In this document: in pieces, positions 7,825-26,637 of the stretch
Layout: the number at the start of each line of letters is the position of its first letter
Position numbering within the stretch: the stretch's first letter is position 1
Source: Clostridia bacterium
GTDB taxonomy: Bacteria > Bacillota > Clostridia > Christensenellales > Borkfalkiaceae
Assembly (NCBI GenBank): GCA_017471785.1
Contig: JAFURP010000038.1
Location: 1-64,000, forward strand
Length of the DNA stretch: 64,000 nucleotides
Direction: 5' to 3'
Program-made: the position numbers and the translations under genes
Notes under the pieces: model-generated
What the model was told of the DNA's origin: nothing
Database searches by the model: none
The model's input: only the letters and a program-made list of their open reading frames with translations

Positions 7825-10071
7825 ATGACAAGAAAACCGATCCAAATGCTTTTTAGCGTTATTATGGCGATGGCAATCGCCGTCGGTTTTGTGCCTACGA
7901 CGCTTTTCAAGGGTAACGCGCAAGGCTCGTACGCAGGCTTGCCCAAAGGCGCGAGAATAGGCGATACCATTTACGAAGAAGCCTTATCGGCAAGCGCCTT
8001 AAACGAATGGACGGTAGCGGATACGGGCGATAGCTGGCAATGGAATCCCGACGTTGGCGAAGTTGTATACGACGATCAATTAAACGGCGTAAAAATGAGC
8101 GCGGAAAACGGTATGCAGGTGGCGACGCTTCCTGCGCTTGGCGTAGTAGATTACGCATATACGGCGGAAATTCAAGTGCTTAGTAAAAACGGCGAATTCG
8201 GTTTAGTGACCGATATTGCGGAAAATTCGCAAAGCGCAAGCTATGCAACGGCGTATATCGGCGACGATAGCGCTTTAAGCTTATTGCATTGCGATAACGT
8301 AAACGGCGTGTTGTATAATCAAAATTATGCCGGCGCGGTAGAGCTGTTAGGCAAAGAGATTACGCAAAACGAAACGTATACCCTTGCGGTGTATAGCTTG
8401 GAGGGGACGGCGTATTTCTTTATCAACGGCGTGCTCGTCAACGGCAAATCCGTTTATTCAGGCGGTGCGGAAAACGATATCGTAGGCTTGTATGTTGCCA
8501 ACGGTGAAATTCTCGTAAAAAGCGTTAGCGTGAAAGCGTACCGTTATCCGTTGGAATGCGTGCGTATTGAAGGCTTAAGCGTGCGCTATGCCGACGAGGA
8601 CGGGTTTACGACGGGCAAGGGCTCGTCCGGCTTGCGGTATACGGTTATCGTCGAGAAGAACGCGGAGGATTACGATAGCAACGCGGAATACGGTATATTG
8701 ATTATTCCGAGCGATATTTTGGGCGAAAAGGACTTGACGGTAGACGTAGGCTTGGCGAAGAACATTCGCTTGACGAACGTTTACGAAGAAACGGACGGGA
8801 GCTTGAAATTTACGGCGTCCCTTTTGGATATTCCGACGGCGTCTATGCACAGAAGCTTTGTCGCAAGAGCTTATATGCGCGTACAAGACGGGGACGAATG
8901 GGTATATAGCTACGGAAAAGTGGTCGAGCAAAGTATGGTAAAAACGGCGAATATCGATTACGAAGAAACGGAGGATATGCACGTGAAAAATCGGTTGGAT
9001 AAAATTTTTGAAAACGCAACGGGTTACGCGCAAAGAATTACGTTCTCGCTGTTCGCCGATTTCCATTACATAGAAAATACCTATATGTCGTCCGTTGCCG
9101 ACTTGAACGCCATTTTCCAAAAGGGCGTGGAGAATAACGTGGATTTCGTCCTGCACGCAGGCGATTTCAGTAACAATTACACCGGCTCGCCCGAGCTGAT
9201 CAAGGCGTATAAGGAAAATGCGTACAACCTGCCCGTATACGGCATTTACGGCAATCACGAGCTGGAGGGGTCGAAGGATACGATGGCGTTCGTAACGCCT
9301 GCGTTGACCAACCAAGCGGATAAGGTTACTTGGGGTACGGAAAGCGGAAAAATCGAAGACGGCAGTATCGGTTATTATTACTTCGACGTGAACGGGATTC
9401 GCGTGATTTGTACGGATACCAACTATTCTTGGAATCCTACCTTAAGCAGATGGGAGCATCGCGAAGAACTGAGAAGTAATTCGGGAAACAGCTACGATAA
9501 TTCGTTCGGCGAGCCGCAAAGAACGTGGCTCAAAGCGGTGTTGAACGACGCGGCGGATAAGGATATTTCCTGTATCGTCATTTCCCACCACCCGACTTCG
9601 GGATTGTTAAATCAAGCGCCGTCCGACGCAATGCAGGTACGGGAAATTTTCAAGCAGGCGAACGCAAAGCGTGCAGGAACGGTATTGATGGTGATGAACG
9701 GGCATTTGCATACCAACCATATCCAGTTTGTAGACGATATTTTATATTTTGACGTGAACGTCGTGCGTAACGGTCAATGGCTCAGCGGTAGTACGGCGCA
9801 TTACGGGAATAATACTTTCGATAAGGTAAGCTACGACGACGAGGGCAACGAAACGGGAACGGCGCCGTTGCTGCTCAACAGCTTAAAGCAAGGCGCGAAC
9901 ACGTGGTTCTTCACCGATCCGCTCAACGCTATCGTGACCGTGTCGAGTACGGGTAAGATCGTCGTCGAGGGTATGGAAACGACGTGGCTGTTCGGTATAG
10001 AGCCGCCTTCTTTGTACGACGGTACGGAGCCGAGGATTTCCAGCGGCGTGTATAAAATGCCTGCGGATTGA
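7825..10071 (+). CDS. Secreted calcineurin-like metallophosphoesterase with N-terminal beta-sandwich modules
   Basis: A 748-residue exported protein with a Sec signal peptide (about 1-33, no lipobox). Residues about 45-240 look like a concanavalin/LamG-type sandwich. Residues about 245-385 form a module with LRYTVIVEK, GILIIPSDIL and RSFVARAYMRV, which resembles the N-terminal domain of the secreted protein at 21853. The C-terminal catalytic domain has every metallophosphoesterase motif: FADFHY (Asp412, His414), HAGDF (Asp447), GNHE (Asn477, His478), SHHP (His588) and NGHLHTNH (His627, His629). It would hydrolyse phosphate esters outside the cell; the substrate is unknown. It opens the glycan island, with GGAGG just before the ATG. 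Confidence 0.88.
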   Translation: MTRKPIQMLFSVIMAMAIAVGFVPTTLFKGNAQGSYAGLPKGARIGDTIYEEALSASALNEWTVADTGDSWQWNPDVGEVVYDDQLNGVKMSAENGMQVATLPALGVVDYAYTAEIQVLSKNGEFGLVTDIAENSQSASYATAYIGDDSALSLLHCDNVNGVLYNQNYAGAVELLGKEITQNETYTLAVYSLEGTAYFFINGVLVNGKSVYSGGAENDIVGLYVANGEILVKSVSVKAYRYPLECVRIEGLSVRYADEDGFTTGKGSSGLRYTVIVEKNAEDYDSNAEYGILIIPSDILGEKDLTVDVGLAKNIRLTNVYEETDGSLKFTASLLDIPTASMHRSFVARAYMRVQDGDEWVYSYGKVVEQSMVKTANIDYEETEDMHVKNRLDKIFENATGYAQRITFSLFADFHYIENTYMSSVADLNAIFQKGVENNVDFVLHAGDFSNNYTGSPELIKAYKENAYNLPVYGIYGNHELEGSKDTMAFVTPALTNQADKVTWGTESGKIEDGSIGYYYFDVNGIRVICTDTNYSWNPTLSRWEHREELRSNSGNSYDNSFGEPQRTWLKAVLNDAADKDISCIVISHHPTSGLLNQAPSDAMQVREIFKQANAKRAGTVLMVMNGHLHTNHIQFVDDILYFDVNVVRNGQWLSGSTAHYGNNTFDKVSYDDEGNETGTAPLLLNSLKQGANTWFFTDPLNAIVTVSSTGKIVVEGMETTWLFGIEPPSLYDGTEPRISSGVYKMPAD

Positions 10072-13547: not shown

Positions 13548-15188
13548 ATGAAAAAGATGAAAAAAATAGGGAGTATCTCGCTGGCGCTTGCGCTCGGTGC
13601 TTCCGCGGCGGCAGGCTTGGCTGGGTGCAATAAACAGCCCGAGGATTCCGTGGACGCGTTGGACATTTACGTATTACATAAGGGTAACGGCGTACAATGG
13701 TGCTACGATATGGCGGACGCCTTTTTAGAACAGGACTGGGTAAAGGAAAAATACCCCAATCTTACCATTTCGCCGATTGTAACGAACGACGAAGAAAGCT
13801 ACGCTTCGGGTATGCTCAACGCGGGCGAGGGTAGAAACCGTTTCGATTTGATGTTCGTACACTTGGACGGACAGCTGTACGCAGGTCCGAGCGGCTCGCT
13901 GGAGGATCTGACGCAAAGCGTATATTATGCGGACGTCCCCGGCGAAGAAGGCGTGAAGTATATCGACAAGCACAACGATTCGTATACCTTCATCAACCGT
14001 TATATCGACACGACGGACGCTTCGAAAGAGGCGTATTATCAAACGACTTGGAACCACGGTATGGACTCGTTCGTTTACAACGAAACGCTTCTTAACGCGC
14101 TTGGCAAGGACGTGCCCAACACCACGGACGAATTTTTGGAAATTTGCGAGTACGTTTTGAATATCAACGACCGACCTGCCGGCGTATACGATAAGACGTT
14201 CACCATTCAACAGGCGGAAAACGGCTATTGGAACTATATATTCCCCGTTTGGTGGGCGCAATACGAGGGGATCCAAGGGTATAAAAACTTTTGGAACGGT
14301 ATCGACGAAAACAATACGAGATCGCCTGCGATCTTCGATCAAGACGGTATCGAGGAAGCCTTGAAATTTATGGAGAAGGCGCTTACCTACGAAACGGGCT
14401 ATATCGCGAAAGACTCTATGTCCTACGCCTTTATGGAGGGGCAAACGGTGTTTATGCGCGGCAACGGTATCTTCCACGCCAACGGCGACTGGTTCGATAA
14501 CGAAATGAGCGAAATCGCTCAGCAAATTAAGGACGAGGGCGGCGAAGCGTCCAACTACGTGTTCAAGATCATGAAAACGCCCATCATCAGCGCGCTCGGC
14601 ACCAAGCTCGGTATCGACGACGCGACCTTGTCCGCGCTCGTGGATTACGTAGACGGTGAAACGACTACCGCGCCCGAATTTACCTCCACCGAGGGATATA
14701 CGAAAGACGAAGTGATCGACGCGGTGAAAGAGGCTCGTACGATCGTTCATTCGCTTGGTCCCAAGCACGCGGGTATTATTCCCAAATACGCGCTTTGTAA
14801 AGACCCTGCTATCGACTTCTTGCGGTTTATGGCGACGGATACGGCGCAGGAGATTTATATGAAAGCGACGGGCGGTTCTTGCTTGCCGTTCGAATACAAC
14901 GTCAAGGAAAAAAATCCCACGCTGTATAGCCAAATGACGCCTTTCCATCAAGCGAAGCTGGACTACTTCTGCTCTACGCAGTACGACGTGTACACCTTGC
15001 CCGACGACAGCGCGTTCCCCTTGGCGCAATACGGCGGCTTGACGGCTACTTACGACGTGCAGTATTATACCACCTTCATCGAGGAAGGACATACCAAGAC
15101 GGCGGCGGATTTCATTCAGGAAACCAAGGACACTTGGACGCAGGATAAATTCAACACGGCTTTGGCGACCGCAGGTATCGCCGGTTAA
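13548..15188 (+). CDS. ABC transporter extracellular sugar-binding lipoprotein
   Basis: A 546-residue lipoprotein (lipobox LAGC, Cys27) of the family 1 solute-binding fold, longer than the usual 400-450 residues. It has the expected pattern of a ligand-binding two-lobe protein: an N-terminal lobe with RFDLMFVHLDGQLYAG, a Tyr/Trp-rich middle (YWNYIFPVWWAQYEG) and a hinge with FMRGNGIFHANGDWF. It is anchored on the outer face of the membrane and delivers sugar to the permeases at 11635 and 12588, 18 bases upstream. Size and aromatic content suggest an oligosaccharide ligand. Confidence 0.88.
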   Translation: MKKMKKIGSISLALALGASAAAGLAGCNKQPEDSVDALDIYVLHKGNGVQWCYDMADAFLEQDWVKEKYPNLTISPIVTNDEESYASGMLNAGEGRNRFDLMFVHLDGQLYAGPSGSLEDLTQSVYYADVPGEEGVKYIDKHNDSYTFINRYIDTTDASKEAYYQTTWNHGMDSFVYNETLLNALGKDVPNTTDEFLEICEYVLNINDRPAGVYDKTFTIQQAENGYWNYIFPVWWAQYEGIQGYKNFWNGIDENNTRSPAIFDQDGIEEALKFMEKALTYETGYIAKDSMSYAFMEGQTVFMRGNGIFHANGDWFDNEMSEIAQQIKDEGGEASNYVFKIMKTPIISALGTKLGIDDATLSALVDYVDGETTTAPEFTSTEGYTKDEVIDAVKEARTIVHSLGPKHAGIIPKYALCKDPAIDFLRFMATDTAQEIYMKATGGSCLPFEYNVKEKNPTLYSQMTPFHQAKLDYFCSTQYDVYTLPDDSAFPLAQYGGLTATYDVQYYTTFIEEGHTKTAADFIQETKDTWTQDKFNTALATAGIAG

Positions 15189-15205
15189 AAAATCAGGAGC
15201 GAGCT

Positions 15206-17731
15206 ATGAAAAAAACAGGATTAAAAGTTCTTGCGGTGCTTTCCGCGCTCGTATGTCTAACGAGCGCAGGCTGTAAGAACGATAAAGCCGAGGCGCTCGT
15301 TTGGGGCGGCTTGTCCGACGCGGATATTTGGGGCGCGCCCGCCACGGAGAAGGTGTATCAAGACATCTCCACGGGCTACGAGGCCTTCCGCACGGACGCG
15401 CAGGTTTCCGTAACGGCGGCGCGCGGCGAATACGAAGCGGGGCAGATCATCGTTACGGCAAAGGATAAGGACCTCAAATACGAGGTGTCCGCCGCCGATT
15501 TGACCGCCGCGGACGGCACGAAATTCCCTGCGGCGAGCATTGAAATTTTCCATGAAAAGTATATCGAGATAACGCGAAACTGGGAAAACAACGGTATGCC
15601 TTTGGGTTGGTATCCCGACGCGCTCGTGCCCGTGGAAAACATCAAGCAGGTTGGGGAAAACGTGATCGCCCCCAACCAAAACCAAGGCTTGTACGTGCGC
15701 TTTAACGTGCCCGTAGACCAAAAGGCAGGGGTATATACCGGCTCCATCGCGCTCAAGATCGGCGACGAGAGCAAGAGTATTCCCGTGACTTTGAACGTTT
15801 TGGACGTCGAGGTGAGCGAAAAAACGCACACGCAAAGCCATTACGCCGTCAATTATCAATATTTCCGCGGCGAGCTGGAGCAATCGCAATCGATGTACGA
15901 AAAGTATTGCGAAATGCTGATGGATTACCGCTTGAGCGCGGCGATCCCCATGGAAAAGGTAACGACCGAGCCCGAGGACGTGGAATATTACGTCGATCTG
16001 GCTTATAAATGGATAACGGAATACGGTTGTACGACGATCGACGTGCCCTACGGCGCCGGCGTGGAGATCGTCAACGGCAAGAAATATAACAGTATCGACA
16101 GGGCGACCTTTTCGTTGTATTTGAAAGCGTTCGCCGAAAAATCGTTTGAAACGGGCTACAATATGTTCGACCAGCTCATCACCCGTACGGGTACCTTGAT
16201 CGACGAGCCGCACGGTAAAAAGGACGGCGAAGCGAGGGTACAGGCGGTGGCGACGGCTTGGAAGGAAACGAAATTGCAAGTGGCGCAGGAGCTTGAGGAC
16301 GACGATACGATCACCTCGCCCATTAAAGACGAGGTGGTGGAGGGCATTCGCGAGCTGATCGACGTCGTAACGGCGGCGTACAGCGAGGTTTACGAGGGCT
16401 ACGTGGAAACGTTTTGCCCGGGGTTTACCGAGTACGATACGGAAGCGAGCCGCGCAAAGTACGCGGATCAAGAGCGGAAATGGTTCTACGGCTGTATCAA
16501 TCCCCGTTCCCCCTATCCGACGAATAAGATCGACGATACGCTGCTTTCCACGCGCGTAGTGGGCTGGATGCAAGCGCAATACGACGTTTCGGGCGTTTTG
16601 TATTGGACGACTACCTTGTATCAGCAGGGCGCGGAAAGCGGCTATATGGATATCGAGGATTATTACGGCGTAGCCGAGCGTTACGGCAAAGCGAACGGCG
16701 ACGGTTTATTGTTCTACCCCGGGAAGCGCTACGGCGTGGACGGTCCCGTGGCGAGTATGCGTTTGGAAGCCATTCGCGACGGTTTGGAGGAATACGAGAT
16801 GCTGTACGCTTTGGAAGAAGCGTACGGGGCAAAGCAAGCGAGGTTGCAGGCAAACGGCGAGGATATTTCCTTTGATTTCGACGCGTTGATCGCGAGCTTG
16901 ACCGAGAGCTTATATTCGGGCACGCGCGTTTCGGCAACGACGGAAACGTTCGCAAGCGCGCGCAACGCCTTATTGCAGCTTTGTCTTTTGCAATCGGGCG
17001 CGGATACGTATTTGGCGGACTTTGCCGACGACGGTTACGGAACGGCTTCGTATACCTTCCTCGTAGGCGACGGCGCGACGGTGAAGGTCAACGGCGAAAC
17101 CAAGACGGCAAGCGCGACCGTTACCGACGGGGACGGCAAGGAGTATGGAAAGTATTCGTTCGACTGCGCTTTGTCCGAAGCGGAAAATTGGTTGCATATG
17201 CAAGTGATCGTAGGCGAAGGCACGTTTGCGTACGACAGCTATTTGGGCGGTAAGGTACAACGTATCGACGCGGCGCAAACGGTTGCGGGGGATTTCGGCA
17301 AGGAACAGGCTACGCCCGTTTACGAGCTTATCCAAGACGCGAGCACGGTGGACGGAACGCTGACGGGCTCGATCGTAAAGCTTGCTATTCCCGAATGTTC
17401 GGCAAAGAGCGCGCAATCCGTCCGTTTGGGCGGTACGCTCGTCAAGGATATCGACGCTACGACGGGTAAGGCGATCGTACATATCTATTACGACGGCAGC
17501 GACGAGCCGACCTTACAGCTTAGCGGAAGCTACAGCTTGGATACGGTATATTACGTGTTCGGCTCGACGACCTTAAAGCAGGGTATGAACGAGATCGAGA
17601 TCACGTTCCCCTCGGGCAGATACGAAAAGGCGACCTTAAATTATATGGTGGCGATCGTCAATCCCTCGTCCAAGCAAGCGGAGCCTGCGCGCGACCTGTA
17701 TTTCAAGGATCTGATCCTGTACGCAAAATAA
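15206..17731 (+). CDS. Lipoprotein with GH123/DUF4091-like glycoside hydrolase domain
   Basis: An 841-residue lipoprotein (lipobox TSAGC, Cys23). Residues about 45-210 are a beta-sandwich, and the DUF4091/GH123-like TIM-barrel region covers about 210-570. Its C-terminal signature is clear: WTTTLYQQG, DGLLFYPGKRYGVDGP and SMRLEAIRDGLEEYEML. A further beta-rich, possibly carbohydrate-binding part follows (about 600-841). Characterised GH123 enzymes remove beta-GalNAc from glycolipid glycans, so an amino-sugar substrate is plausible; the exact activity is inferred. It lies 17 bases after the binding-protein gene in the same operon. Confidence 0.82.
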   Translation: MKKTGLKVLAVLSALVCLTSAGCKNDKAEALVWGGLSDADIWGAPATEKVYQDISTGYEAFRTDAQVSVTAARGEYEAGQIIVTAKDKDLKYEVSAADLTAADGTKFPAASIEIFHEKYIEITRNWENNGMPLGWYPDALVPVENIKQVGENVIAPNQNQGLYVRFNVPVDQKAGVYTGSIALKIGDESKSIPVTLNVLDVEVSEKTHTQSHYAVNYQYFRGELEQSQSMYEKYCEMLMDYRLSAAIPMEKVTTEPEDVEYYVDLAYKWITEYGCTTIDVPYGAGVEIVNGKKYNSIDRATFSLYLKAFAEKSFETGYNMFDQLITRTGTLIDEPHGKKDGEARVQAVATAWKETKLQVAQELEDDDTITSPIKDEVVEGIRELIDVVTAAYSEVYEGYVETFCPGFTEYDTEASRAKYADQERKWFYGCINPRSPYPTNKIDDTLLSTRVVGWMQAQYDVSGVLYWTTTLYQQGAESGYMDIEDYYGVAERYGKANGDGLLFYPGKRYGVDGPVASMRLEAIRDGLEEYEMLYALEEAYGAKQARLQANGEDISFDFDALIASLTESLYSGTRVSATTETFASARNALLQLCLLQSGADTYLADFADDGYGTASYTFLVGDGATVKVNGETKTASATVTDGDGKEYGKYSFDCALSEAENWLHMQVIVGEGTFAYDSYLGGKVQRIDAAQTVAGDFGKEQATPVYELIQDASTVDGTLTGSIVKLAIPECSAKSAQSVRLGGTLVKDIDATTGKAIVHIYYDGSDEPTLQLSGSYSLDTVYYVFGSTTLKQGMNEIEITFPSGRYEKATLNYMVAIVNPSSKQAEPARDLYFKDLILYAK

Positions 17732-17744
17732 GGAGGTGGCAAGG

Positions 17745-18983
17745 ATGAAAAGAAAAATAGCTCTTTTGGCGGCGTTGCCGTTTGCTTTTGCCTCCTTTGC
17801 GTTCGCAGGCTGTAAGGAGGAAGCAAAAGCGCCCGAGCAGGTAGTATTGTGCGATTTCGAGCAGTTCGAGCCGGACTTCCAGCTCATGCGTTTGCAACAC
17901 GAGTTCGGCGCGGTGCGCGTGAATACGGACGAAAAATACGTAAAAAGCGGTAAAACGTCGGCAAAGCTTATGCCGATAGGCGGCTATACGAGCGGCGCGG
18001 TGCCCTACGCGTATATTCAAACGTTCAGCGACCGTTTCGATTACGATTACCGCGATTTCACCAAGGTAAAGTCCTTCTCTATGTGGATGTATAACGCGCA
18101 GGAAACGACGGAGGTGGTGAAATTCGGGCTTATCGGGGAGATCACCAGCACGACGAGCTGCGTGAAGGTGCCTTGTATACAATATGCGCTGGAAAGCGGC
18201 TGGAATAAGGTGGTGGTATATCTCGAGCACGATAAATTGGCGTTTTCCTTGGACGTTGCGGACGTTCCTGGGCTGTACGTGGAATTTGAAAACGCAGGCG
18301 TGCGCGATATCGAGGAAGCCCCCGTGTTCTATATGGACGACGTAGCTTTGAATACGCTGGAAACGCCCGTCGAGATAGACGACGATTACGAATTCGCCAA
18401 GGGCGAGATCGCCGATTTCGAATACGATTATCAGGCGAATATGATCACCTACCAAAACACCAAGGATACGAGTATGCCCAACGCGTACGTCGTAAAGGCG
18501 GCAAACGAGGGACTTATCGCGCCGAGCGGCGAGAAGATACTTAAAGTCGTTACCAAGGGCGATAAAGAAAGGAGCGGCTGGCCGAGCATTTTGATCCCCC
18601 AAAAGATCTTGGAGGCAAGCGGCTTTAACCAAATACCCAAGGAGCAATGGGCGAATTACGTATTCCGTTTCGAGGTGTATACGGAGGTGGAGGATATCGA
18701 TTTCAAGCTGTATTCCATCCTCTACGCGCAAAAGGGTAGTCAGGGTAAACAAACGATCAAAACGAAAGCGGGAGAATGGGTAACGCACGAGGTCGCGTTC
18801 TCCACCGTCGGGTATTTCGACTCGAATACGACGGAGGAGAAATTGCAAACCGCTACGGAAAATATCCTCACCGCGCCTGCGAAATGGGCGATCAACTGGG
18901 GCGGCTATAACGACGCCGAGGAGAAGGTGTTCTATTTGGATAACTTCCGCTACGTGAATATCACCGAGGAGGGCGCGCAATGA
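17745..18983 (+). CDS. Lipoprotein with two carbohydrate-binding-like beta-sandwich domains
   Basis: A 412-residue lipoprotein (lipobox AFAGC, Cys23). It has two similar halves (about 30-205 and 215-405). Each begins with a DFE-type strand (LCDFEQFEPDFQ; IADFEYDYQAN), contains a segment on altered strain or spread (KSFSMWMYNAQ; YVFRFEVYTE) and ends with a [YL]-D-[DN] strand (FYMDDVAL; FYLDNFRY), the pattern of jelly-roll carbohydrate-binding modules. There are no catalytic motifs. The ATG at 17745 has AGGAGG eight bases upstream. Its stop overlaps the next gene's ATG by 4 bases (ATGA), so they are coupled. Function is inferred from fold-like pattern and context. Confidence 0.78.
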   Translation: MKRKIALLAALPFAFASFAFAGCKEEAKAPEQVVLCDFEQFEPDFQLMRLQHEFGAVRVNTDEKYVKSGKTSAKLMPIGGYTSGAVPYAYIQTFSDRFDYDYRDFTKVKSFSMWMYNAQETTEVVKFGLIGEITSTTSCVKVPCIQYALESGWNKVVVYLEHDKLAFSLDVADVPGLYVEFENAGVRDIEEAPVFYMDDVALNTLETPVEIDDDYEFAKGEIADFEYDYQANMITYQNTKDTSMPNAYVVKAANEGLIAPSGEKILKVVTKGDKERSGWPSILIPQKILEASGFNQIPKEQWANYVFRFEVYTEVEDIDFKLYSILYAQKGSQGKQTIKTKAGEWVTHEVAFSTVGYFDSNTTEEKLQTATENILTAPAKWAINWGGYNDAEEKVFYLDNFRYVNITEEGAQ

Positions 18984-21580
18984 GAAGGAGCAAAAAGATA
19001 GGTCTTTTGACGGGCTTGGCGCTTTCCGTATGCGCTTGCGGCTTTGCGCTCGGCGCGTGCAAGACGACGCCCGAGATCGCGTTGTTGGATTTCACCGATA
19101 TCGAGCGTACGGCGGAGCTGGACAGCACCTACGTACTTCCCGTTTGTAACGTTACGGACGAGAGCGGCAACGATTATCGGGTGTCGTATACGGTCAAAAC
19201 GGCGGGCGGCGAGGAGATCGTCGTGGCGAATAATTCGTTTGCCGTGAAGCTGTTGGAGGATTATTATATCACCTGTACGGCGGAGCTTGGCGGCGGCGAT
19301 ATCCGTACGCGCACGATCACCTTAAAGGTGGAGGATAAGGGCTTGCCCGAAATTACGTTTGCGGAAGCCAAGCGCGGTATTGAAAATACCGAATACACCC
19401 TGCCCGAAGTGACCGTGACCGATTCTTCCAAGGAAACGATCACGCCGAGCGTGAAAGTCTTTGCCTTAAACGGCGAGGAAAAGGGCGCGGAGCAAACGGT
19501 TGCAAACGGCAAGTTCACGCCTACGCAAAGGGGATATTACCTCTTGGAAGCGACGGCAACGGACGGCTCGGGGAATACGAAAGTGGATAGTACGAAAATT
19601 TTCGTGCGTGAAGCGCCCGAAGCGAGCGAGATCGTGTCCTTTAAGTACGCCGAGGATACCGATTGCCTTGCCTTTAAGGGCGATATCGCTTGGGAGGAAA
19701 GCTACGCAGGCGAAAGCGGCGTGGCAAAGCTCACCTATACGGGCAATAAAAACGCCAATGCGTTGTGTATCGGCTCGCTTCAGGATATTTCCGAAAGCTC
19801 GTCCTTGTATACGGCGTACGATACGCTCGTCGTGAGAATGTATATCGTACGATCGAGCGAGATCACCAACTATTTCAACCCGACGGACGGAAACCTCCGT
19901 ATCAGTCAATGCACGGACGGCAGGGCGATCGCTTCCAGCAATATTTACAGCCAAAACGCCGTGGAATACAACAAATGGGTGAATTATTTATTCGATATCG
20001 AAGCGTTGCGGTATTTCGATATGGAAAAACCCAATACGAATAACGCAAAGCTTTGGTCGGACGGCGTGATCAAGGACGGCGACGACGCGCTCGTTCACAG
20101 CGGCGAGTTTTACATAGCGGATATTTACTGCACCAACACGGTGGACGTGGAGGTGAGCGGCTCGTATCAAGTGGGGCAGACCCTGTCGTTTGGCGTTTCG
20201 TCGGGCGAGGCGAGCTACTTGGTGGAAAAGCCCGACGGCACTATGGATACGGTGCAGGGCGATTCGTATACCATCACGCAAAAGGGTACGCATAAGGTAA
20301 TTGCAAACGGCGAGGGCGTGTACGGTGAAGCGAGGTTTACGGCGCTCCGCGCAGGCGCGACGGGCGAGGTGCTTTCCTTTGACGAAGCGGACGATATCGA
20401 CTTGGCGTACAACACCGTCGCAAATAGTCTTTCCATCGTCGAGCACGCGGACGAAACGGGCGTTTTGAAGCTGGAATGGAGCGGCGGCAGATGGCCCACT
20501 ATTTCGTTCCAATCGCTTGCAAGCCAAGCAACGCGCGCGACGTACGATTACGTGACGTTCCGTATGTACCTGCCGAGCGGTACGGCTTTCGAAAGCGTTT
20601 CGATCAAAAACGGCGCGTCGGGGAATAAACAGCCGATAGAGGGTACGACGATCGTATACGATCAATGGTTTGATTGCCGTTTTGCGGTAAGCGCGGCGTC
20701 CAATTGGACGGACGGCGCGTCGGCGAGCGAGCTTTGGACGAATGAGTGTAAATTCTTCCTCACCATTCCCGCCGTTGACGGACAAACGGAATATCAAGCG
20801 ACGATCTATATCGCGGATATCCGTTTGGAAAAGCAAGCGACGGTGAGCGTTACGGGCGCTACTTCGGTGGATAGCCAAGTAACGTTCGGCGCAACGCAGG
20901 GCAATCAAGCGCTGTCTATGACGGACGCAAGGGTGATCGTGACCACGCCGAGCGGAACGACGACGAGCGTGACGGGCGCGAGCTATACGATCGCGGAAAA
21001 GGGCGTGCATACGGTGGAGGTAACGGGCGCGAATTTCTACGGTAAAACGACGTTTACGGCAACGCGCGCGGTTGGCGCGACCGAGCTGATCTCCTTCGAC
21101 TACGAGGAGGATATCCAAAACGTTGCGGTGACTGCGGCGACGGATACGAAAGCGGGCGGTACGGCGGTGCGTTTGGCAAGCTATGCGGAAGAAACGGGCG
21201 TATTGCAGCTGACGTGGAGCGGTAACAAATGGCCGACGGTAGCGATATCCTTCTTGCAAAGCAAAGCGGTATATCAGCAATACAGTTACGTCGTGTTCCG
21301 CGTTTACGCACCCGACGGATTGGCGAATTTTGCCGTTCAAAGCGGTTATAAAGACGGAACGACCGAAAAGCAAAATTATTATCCGACGATAGGCAATACG
21401 GCGCTTGCCGCAGGCGAGTGGCACGACGTCAAATTCACGACGAGCTGTTTTGCCAAGTGGACGGACGGCGCTTCGGCGAACGAGCTTTTGAGTGCGACTT
21501 GCGTGCTTTGGGGAACGTTTGCGGATTCCGCTGTCTCGGGTACGCTGTATATCGCAAACGTGTATATGTCGAACGAATAA
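18980..21580 (+). CDS. Large modular lipoprotein with Ig-like and repeated beta-sandwich domains
   Basis: An 866-residue lipoprotein (lipobox LGAC, Cys27). Residues about 30-210 form one Ig-like unit (TRTITLKVEDKGLPEI ... NGKFTPTQRGYYLLEATATDGSGN). Three carbohydrate-binding-like modules follow, starting near SEIVSFKYAEDTD, GEVLSFDEADDID and TELISFDYEEDIQ, each with an ETGVLxLxWSG-type strand, a Tyr-Asp-Tyr or Tyr-Val strand and a TLYIANVYM-type end; the modules are joined by short domains with YTIxxKGxHxV. The same parts recur in the proteins at 21853 and 24034. It is probably a surface glycan-binding or structural protein; no enzyme motif is seen. Confidence 0.8.
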   Translation: MRRSKKIGLLTGLALSVCACGFALGACKTTPEIALLDFTDIERTAELDSTYVLPVCNVTDESGNDYRVSYTVKTAGGEEIVVANNSFAVKLLEDYYITCTAELGGGDIRTRTITLKVEDKGLPEITFAEAKRGIENTEYTLPEVTVTDSSKETITPSVKVFALNGEEKGAEQTVANGKFTPTQRGYYLLEATATDGSGNTKVDSTKIFVREAPEASEIVSFKYAEDTDCLAFKGDIAWEESYAGESGVAKLTYTGNKNANALCIGSLQDISESSSLYTAYDTLVVRMYIVRSSEITNYFNPTDGNLRISQCTDGRAIASSNIYSQNAVEYNKWVNYLFDIEALRYFDMEKPNTNNAKLWSDGVIKDGDDALVHSGEFYIADIYCTNTVDVEVSGSYQVGQTLSFGVSSGEASYLVEKPDGTMDTVQGDSYTITQKGTHKVIANGEGVYGEARFTALRAGATGEVLSFDEADDIDLAYNTVANSLSIVEHADETGVLKLEWSGGRWPTISFQSLASQATRATYDYVTFRMYLPSGTAFESVSIKNGASGNKQPIEGTTIVYDQWFDCRFAVSAASNWTDGASASELWTNECKFFLTIPAVDGQTEYQATIYIADIRLEKQATVSVTGATSVDSQVTFGATQGNQALSMTDARVIVTTPSGTTTSVTGASYTIAEKGVHTVEVTGANFYGKTTFTATRAVGATELISFDYEEDIQNVAVTAATDTKAGGTAVRLASYAEETGVLQLTWSGNKWPTVAISFLQSKAVYQQYSYVVFRVYAPDGLANFAVQSGYKDGTTEKQNYYPTIGNTALAAGEWHDVKFTTSCFAKWTDGASANELLSATCVLWGTFADSAVSGTLYIANVYMSNE

Positions 21581-21668
21581 AAAAGCCAAATGTTATATGG
21601 TAAATCTCATAGAGAAACAAGTAACGAAAAATAAAAAATAAACAATAAAAATTTTAGGAGGTAGTATG

Positions 21669-21851
21669 ATGCAGGAACAACACGAAGTTAAACAAGCTTC
21701 CATGTATGAAAGCCCGAAAGTGTCCTTGGTACGGCTTTCGACGGACGTTGTGAAAACGAGTACAGTCGGCACGCTTTCTTGGAATAGCGTGGATTGGGGC
21801 GATTCGTTTACGCAAAATCGGGACAATACCTTTATAGGGGAGGGCGAATAA
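21669..21851 (+). CDS. Short peptide gene, 60 residues, unknown function
   Basis: A short open frame with a strong AGGAGG site at 21656-21661. Two ATGs lie in frame, 21666 and 21669; the second has the better 7-base spacing. The peptide has no signal sequence and contains MYESPKVSLVRLSTDVVKTS followed by a tail rich in Thr, Ser, Trp, Asn and Asp. Its stop is one base before the ATG of the secreted protein at 21853, so the two are likely translated together. I do not recognise a named family. It could be a leader that tunes translation, a small precursor peptide or a chaperone-like partner. The ribosome site and coupling support a real gene. Confidence 0.65.
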   Translation: MQEQHEVKQASMYESPKVSLVRLSTDVVKTSTVGTLSWNSVDWGDSFTQNRDNTFIGEGE

Positions 21852-21852
21852 T

Positions 21853-23949
21853 ATGAAAAAGAAAGCATTATTAAGTATCGTAGCCCTTTTGGCGTGCGGC
21901 AGCGCGGCGGCAGGCGTAGCCTCGCTTGCGCCCAAAACCGCTTCGGCGGCAAGCGCAAGCTTCTATTCGGAGGGCGCTTCCGTTAAGATCACTTCGAGCG
22001 TAGCCGAGGCTCAGGTGCGTTTCAATACCACGATGACGGACGAGTTCTACGGCGGTTATTTCACGAACGGCGTAGCGAACGAGGGGGTTGAAACGGGTAT
22101 GCTCGTCGTGCCCTACGACGTATATCAGGCAAGCGGCGTAAGCGAGCTTACCTTGGAAACGGCGGAAACGTGTCACGCAACGCCCGTGGAAACGACCACC
22201 CTTTGGGCGGACGCGCAAACGAGCGGCTTGAAGGAGGCGTACGCGGTGCTTCCGACCAACGCGATCCCCGAAGAGAGCCACAACCGCGTATTGCTCTTTG
22301 TCGGCTACGTAACGGACGGTACGACCCCCGTATATACGGCGCCGAGAAAGACCTCTATGTCGCACGTGGCTTGGAAAGCGCAAAGCGCGGCGGAGGACGT
22401 GGTTTCTTCCACGAACAAAGCGGCTTTGAAGGAAGCGTATATGCACGATTACGAGGTCACGTTTAACGACGCGTACGCGCGTACGATGACCCTCGAATAC
22501 GGCACCTATATCAACGCGCAAACGAGCAAGACGGTATATTGGGACGAGGAATGTACGGAAGCGGTGGCGGACACCGACTACGTTTCCTGTGCGGCGCAGG
22601 TTTACGTAAAAGACGAGGAAAAGGATACGAGCGAATTGCTTTCCTTCGATTACGCTTGCGATACGGAAAGAGCGACGGACAAAGCCGTTTGGATTTCGAA
22701 TAATTATAGTCCCGAAACGGCTTACGTGGAAGAATTTGCAGGCGAAACGGGCGTTATGCAGGTAACGCACCACAGCGTCGATAGGACTACCTCTTACGAT
22801 ACTTGGTCGCCGCAATTTACGCTTCAAAATCCCAAGCAATCTATGGTGGCAACCTCGACCGTATACGATAATTACGAATATCTCGTCGTAAGAATGTATA
22901 TCGTGAAAACCGACGAGTATCAAGTCGATTGGGATTACGTGGCGATAGAAGACCGCAATGCGAGCGGCTGTAAGGTTACGTTGGACGCGGCAAACGATTA
23001 TAATAAATGGATCGACGTGAAATTTGCGTTGACTTCGATCAAAGACGTTATAGGAGAAAAAACGACTTTGAAGATTTACGGTGAAGACGCGGGCGCGGCG
23101 GCTAAGACGGGCGACGGCGCGTATACCAATCAAGTGGGTATGTACTACGTTGCCGGCATTTGGCTTGAGAACGCACAAACGCAATATACCTTTACGGAGG
23201 ATAATTATGCGGACTATGTCGCTTCGTACGTTACCGGTTCGGCAACTGCTTCGATTTCTTGGAGCGATACGGCAGAAGCTGTTCAAATCGATTATACCAT
23301 AACGGGGACCGGCGCGATCTATCCCGGATTTAAGCTGTTGAACGATAACGTTGATTACGGCGCAATCTCGAATAATTACGATTATTTCACGGTTGAGGTT
23401 TATTACGTTGCGACAGGTACGGATCCTTATGACGAGAACGCGACGATATCGCATACGTTGGATCAATATATTGCCAGCAACGGCACGGGCGGTAAGCTGT
23501 GTTTAGGAACGACGGACGGTAAGGTAACTTCCGGAAACGGAAGTAGCGCAGGGCAATGGATAAAGATCATCGCGCCTATCGAATGCTTGGCAGGCGACAG
23601 CGGTTATTACGGAAGAATGAATGCTACTCAAAAAACGACGGGTACGGCAAGAATGTACGTAAAGGGCTTCGAGCTTTGCAAAGCGGAGCTTGCCGTAGAG
23701 GCTACGGGTACGAACGGCTTGGTTTCGGCTGAAGCTTTGACGGTGAGCGTAACGGACGGCGAAGGCGCGACGGTTACGACGTATACCGGCTTTGCCGCGA
23801 GAACGACAGGCGGAAACAGCACGACGATAAAGAACGGAGCGTTTACCGTTAATAGCGGTCGCGAGGGCGATTGGTACGTGGTCGTAGTGGACGGAAACGG
23901 TAAGGTCGGTTTGACGAAGATCACCGTAGCGGCGGCAGCGACCGCGTAA
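21853..23949 (+). CDS. Secreted multi-domain beta-sandwich protein
   Basis: A 698-residue exported protein with a signal peptide ending near ASA (about 33), not a lipoprotein. Residues about 35-260 form a domain (VRFNTTMTDEFY, GMLVVPYDVYQ, HNRVLLFVGYVTDG) resembling the middle module of the metallophosphoesterase at 7825. Residues about 265-698 match the C-terminal half of the lipoprotein at 24034 in order: SFDYACD, FAGETGVMQVTHHSV, YEYLVVRMYIVK, QVDWDYVAIE, KIYGEDAGAAAKTGD, TGTARMYVKGFELCKAELAVE and an end domain. No anchor is visible, so it may be released or held by another surface protein. Its job is probably glycan or surface binding (inference). Confidence 0.8.
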   Translation: MKKKALLSIVALLACGSAAAGVASLAPKTASAASASFYSEGASVKITSSVAEAQVRFNTTMTDEFYGGYFTNGVANEGVETGMLVVPYDVYQASGVSELTLETAETCHATPVETTTLWADAQTSGLKEAYAVLPTNAIPEESHNRVLLFVGYVTDGTTPVYTAPRKTSMSHVAWKAQSAAEDVVSSTNKAALKEAYMHDYEVTFNDAYARTMTLEYGTYINAQTSKTVYWDEECTEAVADTDYVSCAAQVYVKDEEKDTSELLSFDYACDTERATDKAVWISNNYSPETAYVEEFAGETGVMQVTHHSVDRTTSYDTWSPQFTLQNPKQSMVATSTVYDNYEYLVVRMYIVKTDEYQVDWDYVAIEDRNASGCKVTLDAANDYNKWIDVKFALTSIKDVIGEKTTLKIYGEDAGAAAKTGDGAYTNQVGMYYVAGIWLENAQTQYTFTEDNYADYVASYVTGSATASISWSDTAEAVQIDYTITGTGAIYPGFKLLNDNVDYGAISNNYDYFTVEVYYVATGTDPYDENATISHTLDQYIASNGTGGKLCLGTTDGKVTSGNGSSAGQWIKIIAPIECLAGDSGYYGRMNATQKTTGTARMYVKGFELCKAELAVEATGTNGLVSAEALTVSVTDGEGATVTTYTGFAARTTGGNSTTIKNGAFTVNSGREGDWYVVVVDGNGKVGLTKITVAAAATA

Positions 23950-23975
23950 CGCGGCGGTTTATGAACACGCGGCTT

Positions 23976-24003
23976 GTTTCTACGCTCGAAAGGGCGTAGA
24001 AAC
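23976..24003 (+). terminator. Hairpin between two secreted-protein genes
   Basis: GTTTCTACGC (23976-23985) pairs perfectly with GCGTAGAAAC (23994-24003). No T run follows, so it may be a processing or partial-termination hairpin rather than a full terminator. Confidence 0.35.
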
Positions 24004-24033
24004 GGGCGATAAATAAGGGTAAGGAGAATTCCT

Positions 24034-26637
24034 ATGAAAAGGAATAGTAAAATTTGCACGCTACTCGCTATGGCAACCGTTTGTTGCGGTTTTGCCTTTG
24101 CGTCGTGCGAGAATAGTGCGGAAGTAACGTTACAGGATTTTGCCGATACGCAAATGTCCGCGGTTTTGGGTGAGGAATGTACTTTGCCAAGCTCCGCTAT
24201 TAGCACGGCAGGTGCGAAATACGCCGTGGATTATACGGCAAAAACCAAATCGGGCGAAACGGTTACGGTGGAAAACAGCGAGTTCGTCGTGGAATATTTG
24301 GAAGAACACACGCTTACGGCAAGTGTAAAAATCACGGAAAGCGACGTGCGTACGCGCACGATCACCCTGTCCGTAACGGACGAGCACGCGCCCGTCATTT
24401 CCTTTTCCGACGCGACGATCGGCCACGTAGGGAGCGTATATACCTTGCCTACGGTAGACGTTTTAGACGATTCGGGAGAAACGGTTTTACCGACGGTAAA
24501 GCTTTATAAATACAGCGAAAGCGGCGTAAAAGGCGTGGAGGTCGGTTATGCAAACGGCGTGTTTACTCCGCAGGATAAAGGCTTGTATTTGTTGGAGGCT
24601 ACGGCAAAGGATAGTAGCGGAAACGAAGCGGTGCTCGGTAAAATTTTGTACGTAGATACCGTTTCCTTGCAAAGCTTTGAAAATGCGGCAACGAGCGTGG
24701 TTTTAGGCGGTGAATACACTCCGCCGAGCGTTGCCTTGGGCGTAGACGGTACGGAGTATGAGGTTTCTTACGACGTCGTAACGAGTGCAGGGCGTAAGCT
24801 TGGACTGTTAGACGGAAAGCTGTTCGTGCGCTATTATGAAACGCATTATTTGATCGCGAGCGTGCAGGCAGGCGGCGGCGCGGTGCATATTCGTACGATT
24901 ACCGTGAACGTAACGGACGAAGGCGCGCCCGAAATCGTGTTCGGCGAAGCGCAAACGGGCGAAATCAACAGCGAATACGTATTGCCGAGCGTAACCGTCG
25001 TAGACGATTCCCGAGAAACGATCACGCCTGATTTGAAGCTATTCGCTTACAGCGAAAAGGGCGTAAAGGGCGACGAGATTTATTTCAAAAACGGCGCGTT
25101 TACACCGAGCGCGAGCGGTTATTATTTGCTCGAAGCGACGGCGCAGGACAGTAGCGGCAACGAAAGCACGACGGCAAGCAAGATTTTGTACGTGCGCTCA
25201 AACGAAGTATCGGCTACCGAAATCGTAAGCTTTGACGACCCCGAGGACGCTACTTGGCGCGAGGGCGGATACGTGTTGGGCAATATCGGCGTCAGCAACA
25301 ACTATAAGCCTACCGTTACTTGGCAGCATTCGTTTGCAGGGGAAACGGGGGTTATGCAGCTGGTGCATCATAGCGTAGAGAAAGAAGCGGCGTATGATAC
25401 GTGGTCCTCGCAATTTACGATTTACAATTCTAAGCAAGACCTTGGTATCGATTCGGATATTTATGATCAATACGATTATTTGGTCGTAAAAATGTTTATC
25501 GTTAAAAACGCCGAATATCAAGTGGATTGGGATTACGTTGCCATTCAAGAACGGTCGAAGTGTAAAACAGCGACCTTGACTGCTGACGATTACAATCAAT
25601 GGATTACGTTGAAATTCCCGCTGTCGCAGGTTTTGGAAGCGCAAAACGCAGTAATTGACAACGCGGAAACAAAAGCGTATAACGATGCGATTAAAGCGGG
25701 AAAAACGGAAGAGGAAGCTTTGGAAGCAGGCGCAACGGCAAGAGCAAACGCAATAGAAAAGGCAAAACGTCAAATTAAGATTTACGGTCAAGACGCGGGT
25801 GCAGCGGCTAAGACGGGCGATAACGCTTATACCAACCAAGTGGGTATGTTCTACGTTGCGGACGTGTACCTGGAGGGCGTTGAGCCGAATATCGTTTTGA
25901 CGGAAGATAATTTCGAAACGTACGTAACCGAAAAGGGAAATTCCAGCACCGAGCATAAATGGAACGGCGTTGCAAACGCGGTACAGGTAGACTACGACGG
26001 CGACGAAGCTTCTCAGTTGGATAAATACCCCGGGTTTACCTTGCGTGGGCTTTGGAATTACGATACGGTAAAGGCTAAGGGCTACGATTATTTCACCGTG
26101 CAGGTATATATCGTAAACGGCGTTGACCCGTATGATGCAAGCTACGTACCCGAAACGACGCTTGGAAACAGTCGATATATGTCCGTTACAGTACCCGATA
26201 AAATCCGTTTAATGAAGATGAGCGGTGGATTATCGAGCGGAAGTAGCGATAAAGGGCAATGGAATACGTACGTTTTGCCGTTGGAATGCTTGAAATCTTC
26301 GTCTATGGATATTTGGGGCGAGCTGGCTACGCTGTACGGAACGGCCAGAATGTACGTGAAAAATATCGAGCTGAAAAAGGCGGAGCTTGACGTGGAGGTT
26401 ACAGGCGTAAACGGCTTGTACGTAAACGAAACGCTTACCGTAAGCGTAACGGAAAACGGCGAAGCGGTAGATTCGTTTATGGCGTGCGCTGCAAAAGAAG
26501 GCGGTGGAAATCAGGCTACTGTAACGAACGGCACGACGAGTATTTCGATTGCGGACGACTGGTACGTATTCGTAGTGAGCGGTGATAAAGTAGGTTATAC
26601 GAGAATTACCGTGAGCGAGCCGACGGCAACGGAATAA
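24034..26637 (+). CDS. Large modular lipoprotein with duplicated Ig-like unit and helical insertion
   Basis: An 867-residue lipoprotein (lipobox FASC, Cys25). Residues about 30-210 and 211-392 are two copies of one Ig-like unit (both have TRTIT or IRTIT, VTDExAP, YxLPxVxVxDDS and NGxFTPxxxGxYLLEATAxDSSGN). The lipoprotein at 18980 has only one copy. The rest matches the C-terminal 430 residues of 21853. Within that match there is an extra helical stretch of about 45 residues, rich in Ala, Glu and Lys (around residues 530-575, starting EAQNAVIDNAETKAYNDAIK), in place of a short link in 21853. The last domain has VNETLTVSVTENG. Likely surface-bound and glycan-facing; no enzyme motif. Confidence 0.8.
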   Translation: MKRNSKICTLLAMATVCCGFAFASCENSAEVTLQDFADTQMSAVLGEECTLPSSAISTAGAKYAVDYTAKTKSGETVTVENSEFVVEYLEEHTLTASVKITESDVRTRTITLSVTDEHAPVISFSDATIGHVGSVYTLPTVDVLDDSGETVLPTVKLYKYSESGVKGVEVGYANGVFTPQDKGLYLLEATAKDSSGNEAVLGKILYVDTVSLQSFENAATSVVLGGEYTPPSVALGVDGTEYEVSYDVVTSAGRKLGLLDGKLFVRYYETHYLIASVQAGGGAVHIRTITVNVTDEGAPEIVFGEAQTGEINSEYVLPSVTVVDDSRETITPDLKLFAYSEKGVKGDEIYFKNGAFTPSASGYYLLEATAQDSSGNESTTASKILYVRSNEVSATEIVSFDDPEDATWREGGYVLGNIGVSNNYKPTVTWQHSFAGETGVMQLVHHSVEKEAAYDTWSSQFTIYNSKQDLGIDSDIYDQYDYLVVKMFIVKNAEYQVDWDYVAIQERSKCKTATLTADDYNQWITLKFPLSQVLEAQNAVIDNAETKAYNDAIKAGKTEEEALEAGATARANAIEKAKRQIKIYGQDAGAAAKTGDNAYTNQVGMFYVADVYLEGVEPNIVLTEDNFETYVTEKGNSSTEHKWNGVANAVQVDYDGDEASQLDKYPGFTLRGLWNYDTVKAKGYDYFTVQVYIVNGVDPYDASYVPETTLGNSRYMSVTVPDKIRLMKMSGGLSSGSSDKGQWNTYVLPLECLKSSSMDIWGELATLYGTARMYVKNIELKKAELDVEVTGVNGLYVNETLTVSVTENGEAVDSFMACAAKEGGGNQATVTNGTTSISIADDWYVFVVSGDKVGYTRITVSEPTATE

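Follow-up and report, generated by a model that had tools for sequence, protein, structure and literature searches.

Results

A peptide gene directly upstream of an exported protein

What could be the role of a gene for some 60 residues that lies between large surface-protein genes and ends immediately before one of them? This question is raised by a locus in the window analyzed here, a stretch of 64,000 nt from the Clostridia bacterium assembly GCA_017471785.1 (contig JAFURP010000038.1). The original prediction held that the peptide fits no known family and that it might be a small precursor, a translational leader or a dedicated partner of the exported protein. The peptide ORF at 21666-21851 (+ strand) starts with the ATG at 21666, ends with the TAA at 21851 and encodes 61 amino acids, MMQEQHEVKQASMYESPKVSLVRLSTDVVKTSTVGTLSWNSVDWGDSFTQNRDNTFIGEGE. 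Its ribosome binding site, AGGAGG at 21656-21661 (+), was recognized from the sequence and is located 4 nt before this first ATG and 7 nt before a second one, so that the product would comprise 61 or 60 amino acids. Both the gene and the ribosome site that had been predicted are real, and the proposed lack of a signal sequence agrees with the N-terminus of the 61-aa peptide, which is devoid of a hydrophobic stretch. As had also been described, a single base separates the TAA (ending at 21851) from the next ATG (21853). The ribosome site of the following gene, GGAGG at 21839-21843, lies within the final codons of the peptide gene, and peptide and exported protein are therefore probably translationally coupled. 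At the junction between the two genes, no promoter-like site or terminator above chance was detected.

The following gene (21853-23949, +) encodes an exported protein of 698 amino acids with a signal peptide and an N-terminal GASVR domain (approximately residues 34-220). Together with a lipoprotein gene of the same operon upstream of the peptide gene (18980-21580, +), it provides the surface-protein setting that had been noted at the outset. A second lipoprotein gene of this operon is located downstream of the exported partner (24034-26637, +). The operon as a whole is of the glycan type and contains genes for ABC permeases, a substrate-binding protein, a GH123-like protein, lipoproteins, the peptide, the exported protein, a lipoprotein and then a glycosidase. 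The operon at 13548-26637 of the window is paralleled in the same order on contig C61 (L003, G000:C61:44000-62000), where a GH123-like protein, two lipoproteins, the peptide, a GASVR exported protein and a lipoprotein follow one another.

A family of peptides with a predicted leader and core

In a direct search with the peptide, a 57-aa paralog with the same motif was detected in its own genome, within the parallel operon copy. Profiles based on relatives recovered 11 and then 13 copies in this genome, and the total amounts to approximately 15 if weaker copies reached via the exported partner are counted. The copies are scattered, and nearly all of them adjoin genes for exported proteins. Throughout the genus, which takes in Candidatus Scatosoma pullicola (record L137 holds locus L083 of genome G007 exactly), peptide matches were found in 49 of 57 genomes, with up to 17 per genome. 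For one close ortholog pair, the C61 copy and its counterpart in G003, dN/dS was approximately 0.34 overall, the tail (0.24) scoring lower than the leader (0.44). The motif-sharing paralog, the matches across the genus and the dN/dS value demonstrate that the ORF did not arise by chance; conservation in relatives and, for this one pair, selection at the protein level both speak in favor of the original prediction. One copy (L073:7185-7355, - strand, on G000:C7) is located alone near ribosomal-protein genes, without an exported partner. Identical 38-aa members are encoded on separate contigs of genome G071, which belongs to another family (L076:6387-6503 and L077:6719-6835).

The leader consensus of the family consists of a short basic or variable start, the motif Y-E-x-P (Y-x-x-P), alternating hydrophobic residues and the sequence [DE]-V-[VI]-[RT]-T-S. 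After T-S, a variable tail of approximately 20 residues follows, which is rich in Gly, Asp, Asn, Glu and Trp and has a mean net charge of -4. The Ser of T-S is invariant in both family alignments (A1 and A5), and its distance from the Tyr is +18 in the window peptide and +18 or +19 across the family. Substrates of stand-alone RREs are characterized by a YxxP motif with a strand-like stretch after it.

Pfam and NCBIfam contained nothing relevant for the peptide or for 49 family members, a literature search with literal motifs (DVITTS, DVVRTS and similar) retrieved no paper, and neither the peptide nor its profile gave a meaningful match among PDB sequences. As far as Pfam and NCBIfam are concerned, the claim that the peptide fits no family thus stands; beyond these databases it fails, since the peptide matches the precursors of the linear polyphosphorylated peptides (LPP), a RiPP family described by Popov and colleagues in May 2026 (PMC13381572). 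The genes lppA-K-B-S-D-N of Paenibacillus alginolyticus encode a precursor, an HprK-like kinase, an RRE, a leader peptidase resembling archaeal-type signal peptidases, an MsbA-like exporter and a nucleotidyltransferase (PMC13381572). The LPP leader has the consensus YxxPxVLxHQxIxFETxxS; its Tyr and Pro are held by LppB, in which D70 forms a hydrogen bond to the Tyr, LppS cleaves after T-1 together with LppB, and LppK adds several phosphates to Ser3 of the core (PMC13381572). LPP are said to be restricted to Bacillota, with 1-3 precursors per cluster (PMC13381572).

Based on the family alignments A1 and A5, we annotate 21666-21851 (+) as the gene of a putative LPP-like precursor peptide of 61 amino acids (60 from the second ATG). 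The predicted leader spans residues 1-29 (21666-21752, +), its end being placed by the cleavage position of LPP, and harbors a candidate RRE-binding motif, Y14-x-x-P17 (Y14 codon at 21705-21707, +), as judged from the YxxP and a spacing as in LppA. Residues 30-61 (21753-21848, +) form the predicted core, which is assigned by composition and variability, with a putative boundary; it is acidic, rich in Trp, Asn, Asp and Gly, as the originally reported Trp/Asn/Asp-rich tail had indicated, and varies among copies. S32 (codon at 21759-21761, +) is the predicted phosphorylation site, because it is invariant in both alignments and lies at Tyr +18, the spacing of the phospho-Ser in LPP.

The probable exported partner and its GASVR domain

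Among 41 distinct peptide copies with a readable downstream ORF, the next protein had a signal-peptide-like start in 39 cases, compared with a background of 33 of 156 genes according to the same crude signal-peptide rule. The downstream partner is mostly found at -14 to +30 nt from the peptide copy. Many partners have an N-terminal domain in common (GASVR...GIRF...RSM..VA), for which there is no Pfam family. In the reverse analysis, carried out for two genomes, a peptide was adjacent at 28 of 30 GASVR-domain loci, 26 times upstream and twice downstream, a few of these 28 matches being weak by score. Related peptides are thus placed before the same exported family, and gene order, with the peptide nearly always beside an exported protein, suggests that this protein is its dedicated partner, as had been proposed. 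GASVR loci without an adjacent peptide are C59:35162 and the window's own protein at 7825-10071 (+). The latter is an exported protein of 748 amino acids whose GASVR-like domain lies away from the N-terminus.

Distances between cores followed the distances between partner domains weakly (Mantel r=0.14, p=0.006), and no correlation was found for the leaders (Mantel r=-0.02). A pattern in the core and not in the leader would be expected if the leader interacts with a machine common to all copies and the core with its own partner; alternatively, the weak correlation could stem from shared descent. The predicted fold of the N-terminal partner domain is a beta-sandwich (pLDDT 81.6). Foldseek with the predicted GASVR domain found nothing under E 0.01, and VIA-align superposed it on many unrelated beta-sandwiches, CBM56 and the RsgI4 sensor domain among them, with Z-scores reaching 8.3. 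These likenesses may merely reflect a common arrangement and would give no function.

A kinase-RRE-peptidase-exporter cassette co-occurs with the peptides

The genome contains one clear PqqD/RRE protein, which is stand-alone and encoded outside the window at G000:C44. It belongs to a cassette that is conserved in the genus (L080:6298-9475, - strand), where its gene occupies L080:8478-8741, and in which a P-loop HprK-like kinase is located upstream of the RRE, and a signal-peptidase-like protein of the SipW/Sec11 type as well as an MsbA-like ABC exporter are located downstream. The kinase is assigned by its P-loop and weak ScmC/HprK-related matches, its top NCBIfam match, ScmC, being well below the cut-off; for the RRE, the top NCBIfam match was the lasso PqqD model, also below the cut-off. 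The RRE is present in 32 of 57 genomes of the genus (11 of the 12 good ones), and the RRE loci read in the genus have the same operon. A scan of genome contigs revealed 273 RRE relatives; in most of the 80 that were inspected, kinase and peptidase lie beside the RRE. By the residue mapping of the 9x8z alignment, N33, Y60, D70 and F74 of LppB correspond to N35, Y62, D72 and F76, which do not vary within the genus alignment and are largely retained in 77 RREs from the wider loci. The peptidase (L080:8010-8468) retains Ser26 and His64, and Glu85 is invariant (alignments A4 and A7); position 85 is the site of the catalytic Asp in Sec11-type enzymes.

Among the neighbors of this cassette, no nucleotidyltransferase (LppN) and no Asn-synthetase-like cyclase C were found, no other precursor family was evident beside it, and the cassette itself contains no radical SAM genes. 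The lasso B2 leader peptidase (PF13471) gave no match in the own genome, one weak match below the cut-off and broken by stops in 18 further genomes of the genus, and one partial match at the cut-off, from outside the genus, in 33 further genomes. Elsewhere, radical SAM proteins are encoded near peptide/PqqD genes (L165:2618-3973 and, in Collinsella ihumii, L179:10271-12901), and Cys residues in the YxxP peptides of the Collinsella locus suggest a different modification. Kinase-RRE-signal-peptidase-like cassettes also occur in Actinomycetota, namely in Bifidobacterium (L161 and L175), Olsenella (L153) and an Eggerthellaceae member (L189); at L161 and L153 a YxxP peptide adjoining an exported protein is present as well.

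At the order level (297 genomes), the RRE was detected in 13 of 17 peptide-positive genomes, compared with a total of 27 genomes that have it (Fisher p=2e-12, phylogeny ignored), and four genomes had the peptide without an RRE match. In the own family, two genera contain both peptide and RRE, and both are absent from the listed members of the remaining sampled genera. No significant association was seen at the genus level (p=0.12), with 19 peptide-positive genomes in which no RRE was found, probably because many of the genomes are incomplete. The connection of peptide and cassette is therefore based on the order-level data and on gene neighborhood. Outside the genus, 10 of 12 peptide matches lie at most 2.5 kb from the cassette, a zone that makes up 41% of the sequence inspected (p=0.003). 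The peptide adjoins the cassette in [Ruminococcus] torques ATCC 27756 (L182) and at L160, L178 and L185. The [Ruminococcus] torques locus (L182:5878-10267) encodes an exported protein, the peptide, the peptidase, the kinase and the RRE contiguously in a cultured organism that is accessible to laboratory tests.

Discussion

Sequence and gene order establish that the peptide family and the cassette exist, that they co-occur and that the peptides are paired with exported proteins. The predicted status of the peptide as a precursor is well supported by a conserved family that co-occurs with RRE, kinase, peptidase and exporter genes, which supports the earlier suggestion of a small precursor. We consider it likely that the peptide is an LPP-like RiPP precursor which is matured in trans by the one cassette, and that its exported core serves the neighboring exported protein. 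The peptide would be made in translational coupling with this partner. The single RRE of the genome (G000:C44) would bind the leader via Y14 and P17, with the leader joining the RRE as an additional beta strand, the HprK-like kinase would phosphorylate S32, the SipW/Sec11-like peptidase would cleave near V29 while the RRE presents the leader, and the MsbA-like ABC transporter would export the acidic core of approximately 32 residues. Binding, phosphorylation, cleavage and export are here inferred from the biochemistry of LPP and from homology. Outside the cell, the core would act on or with the neighboring GASVR-domain protein, one core per partner, as gene order and the weak co-variation suggest. 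A bolder version, which we put forward tentatively and hold to be somewhat doubtful, is that each GASVR-domain protein is served by a dedicated phosphopeptide, which is exported and binds this protein or assembles it on the cell surface, with one machine acting in trans.

A genuine LPP-like RiPP might also release its core as a diffusible signal or antagonistic peptide, the exported protein being merely a neighbor in the operon. The many divergent cores per genome would suit such a function, as would the patchy distribution of LPP with many gains and losses, which its authors read as typical of conflict genes (PMC13381572). We nevertheless regard it as unlikely, since the peptide pairs with a specific N-terminal domain rather than with arbitrary genes of the operon (28 of 30 loci), the core and not the leader co-varies with the GASVR domain, and none of the copies in the own genome has an evident immunity gene next to it. 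Quite improbable is a small cytosolic or co-secreted helper, such as a chaperone or pilot, that would never be a substrate of the cassette, the latter then serving other peptides. The near one-to-one neighborhood with exported proteins and the non-significant RRE association within the genus are compatible with a helper, but the YxxP leader, the Tyr-Ser spacing and the invariant Ser match LPP precursors, the peptide co-occurs with the cassette at the order level and stands side by side with it in other taxa, and the own-genome cassette has no other evident precursor family next to it.

The originally suggested translational leader, or attenuator, would control the synthesis of the exported protein irrespective of its own amino-acid sequence. 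It is hardly credible given that the amino-acid motif is conserved genus-wide, that the protein sequence is under selection (dN/dS 0.34 for one close ortholog pair) and that some copies stand alone or sit downstream of the partner; the one-base spacing and the partner's ribosome site inside the peptide codons would fit it, but the RNA fold of the junction is no better than that of shuffles (z-score +1.0) and has no match in Rfam. Least credible of all is a lasso precursor, in which residue 1 of the core would form a ring with an acidic residue (Asp or Glu) at about position 7-9. Such a precursor would share the YxxP leader, and the RRE does have the sub-cut-off lasso PqqD model as its top NCBIfam match, but acidic residues occur at no fixed position after T-S, a signal-peptidase-like gene occupies the cassette instead, and B2 was found neither in the own genome nor, as a clear match, in the genus. 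For lack of this peptidase, a lasso system is rejected on present evidence.

If the preferred reading, an LPP-like precursor, holds in its bolder version with a dedicated phosphopeptide per GASVR protein, it would be the first role for LPP-type RiPPs, and a structural or adaptor rather than an antibiotic one. The LPP gene set is already known (PMC13381572); the new part is the dispersed precursors paired with exported GASVR proteins. In this genus, one cassette faces up to 17 such precursors, nearly all tied to one class of exported proteins in glycan-type operons, and the purpose of LPP-type peptides thereby becomes directly testable. GASVR is a newly named domain of exported proteins and the likely target of the cores. 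The range of the cassette is widened to uncultured gut Clostridia, to cultured species of the human gut, for example [Ruminococcus] torques, and apparently to Actinomycetota.

Several known systems resemble the one described here. With SynChlorMet (ScmC/ScmD) it shares an HprK-related kinase adjoining a PqqD-like protein, whereas the present cassette contains no radical SAM gene, has another precursor and includes a signal-peptidase-like gene. Paeninodin-like phosphorylated lasso peptides (PadeA/K/B1/B2/C/D) have a [Y/W]xxP-type leader, a discrete RRE (B1), an HprK-like kinase and an ABC exporter in common with it; here, however, the leader carries Tyr and not Trp, a signal-peptidase-like protease is present and no B2 was found. 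The LPP system is matched by the same gene order K-B-S-D, by a precursor with an N-terminal YxxP (Y14, P17), a constant leader and a variable core, by a Ser at Tyr +18, the position of the phospho-Ser in LppA, by the conserved leader-binding residues of LppB, and by an apparently linear product, no B2 having been found. In contrast to LPP, the peptidase carries Glu where the catalytic Asp would be expected, up to 17 precursors are dispersed over a genome rather than 1-3 lying in the cluster, and the precursors are found with exported GASVR-domain proteins in glycan-type operons instead of at capsule loci. The full LPP leader consensus is matched by the window peptide, YESPKVSLVRLSTDVVKTS, at Tyr, Pro, Val and Ser but not at HQ-I-FET, the middle of the leader reading x-x-[DE]-V-[VI]-[RT]-T-S as opposed to HQxIxFETxxS. 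Because of this mismatch and of a cassette without an adjoining nucleotidyltransferase, we refer to the system as LPP-like, a variant rather than a strict member of the family.
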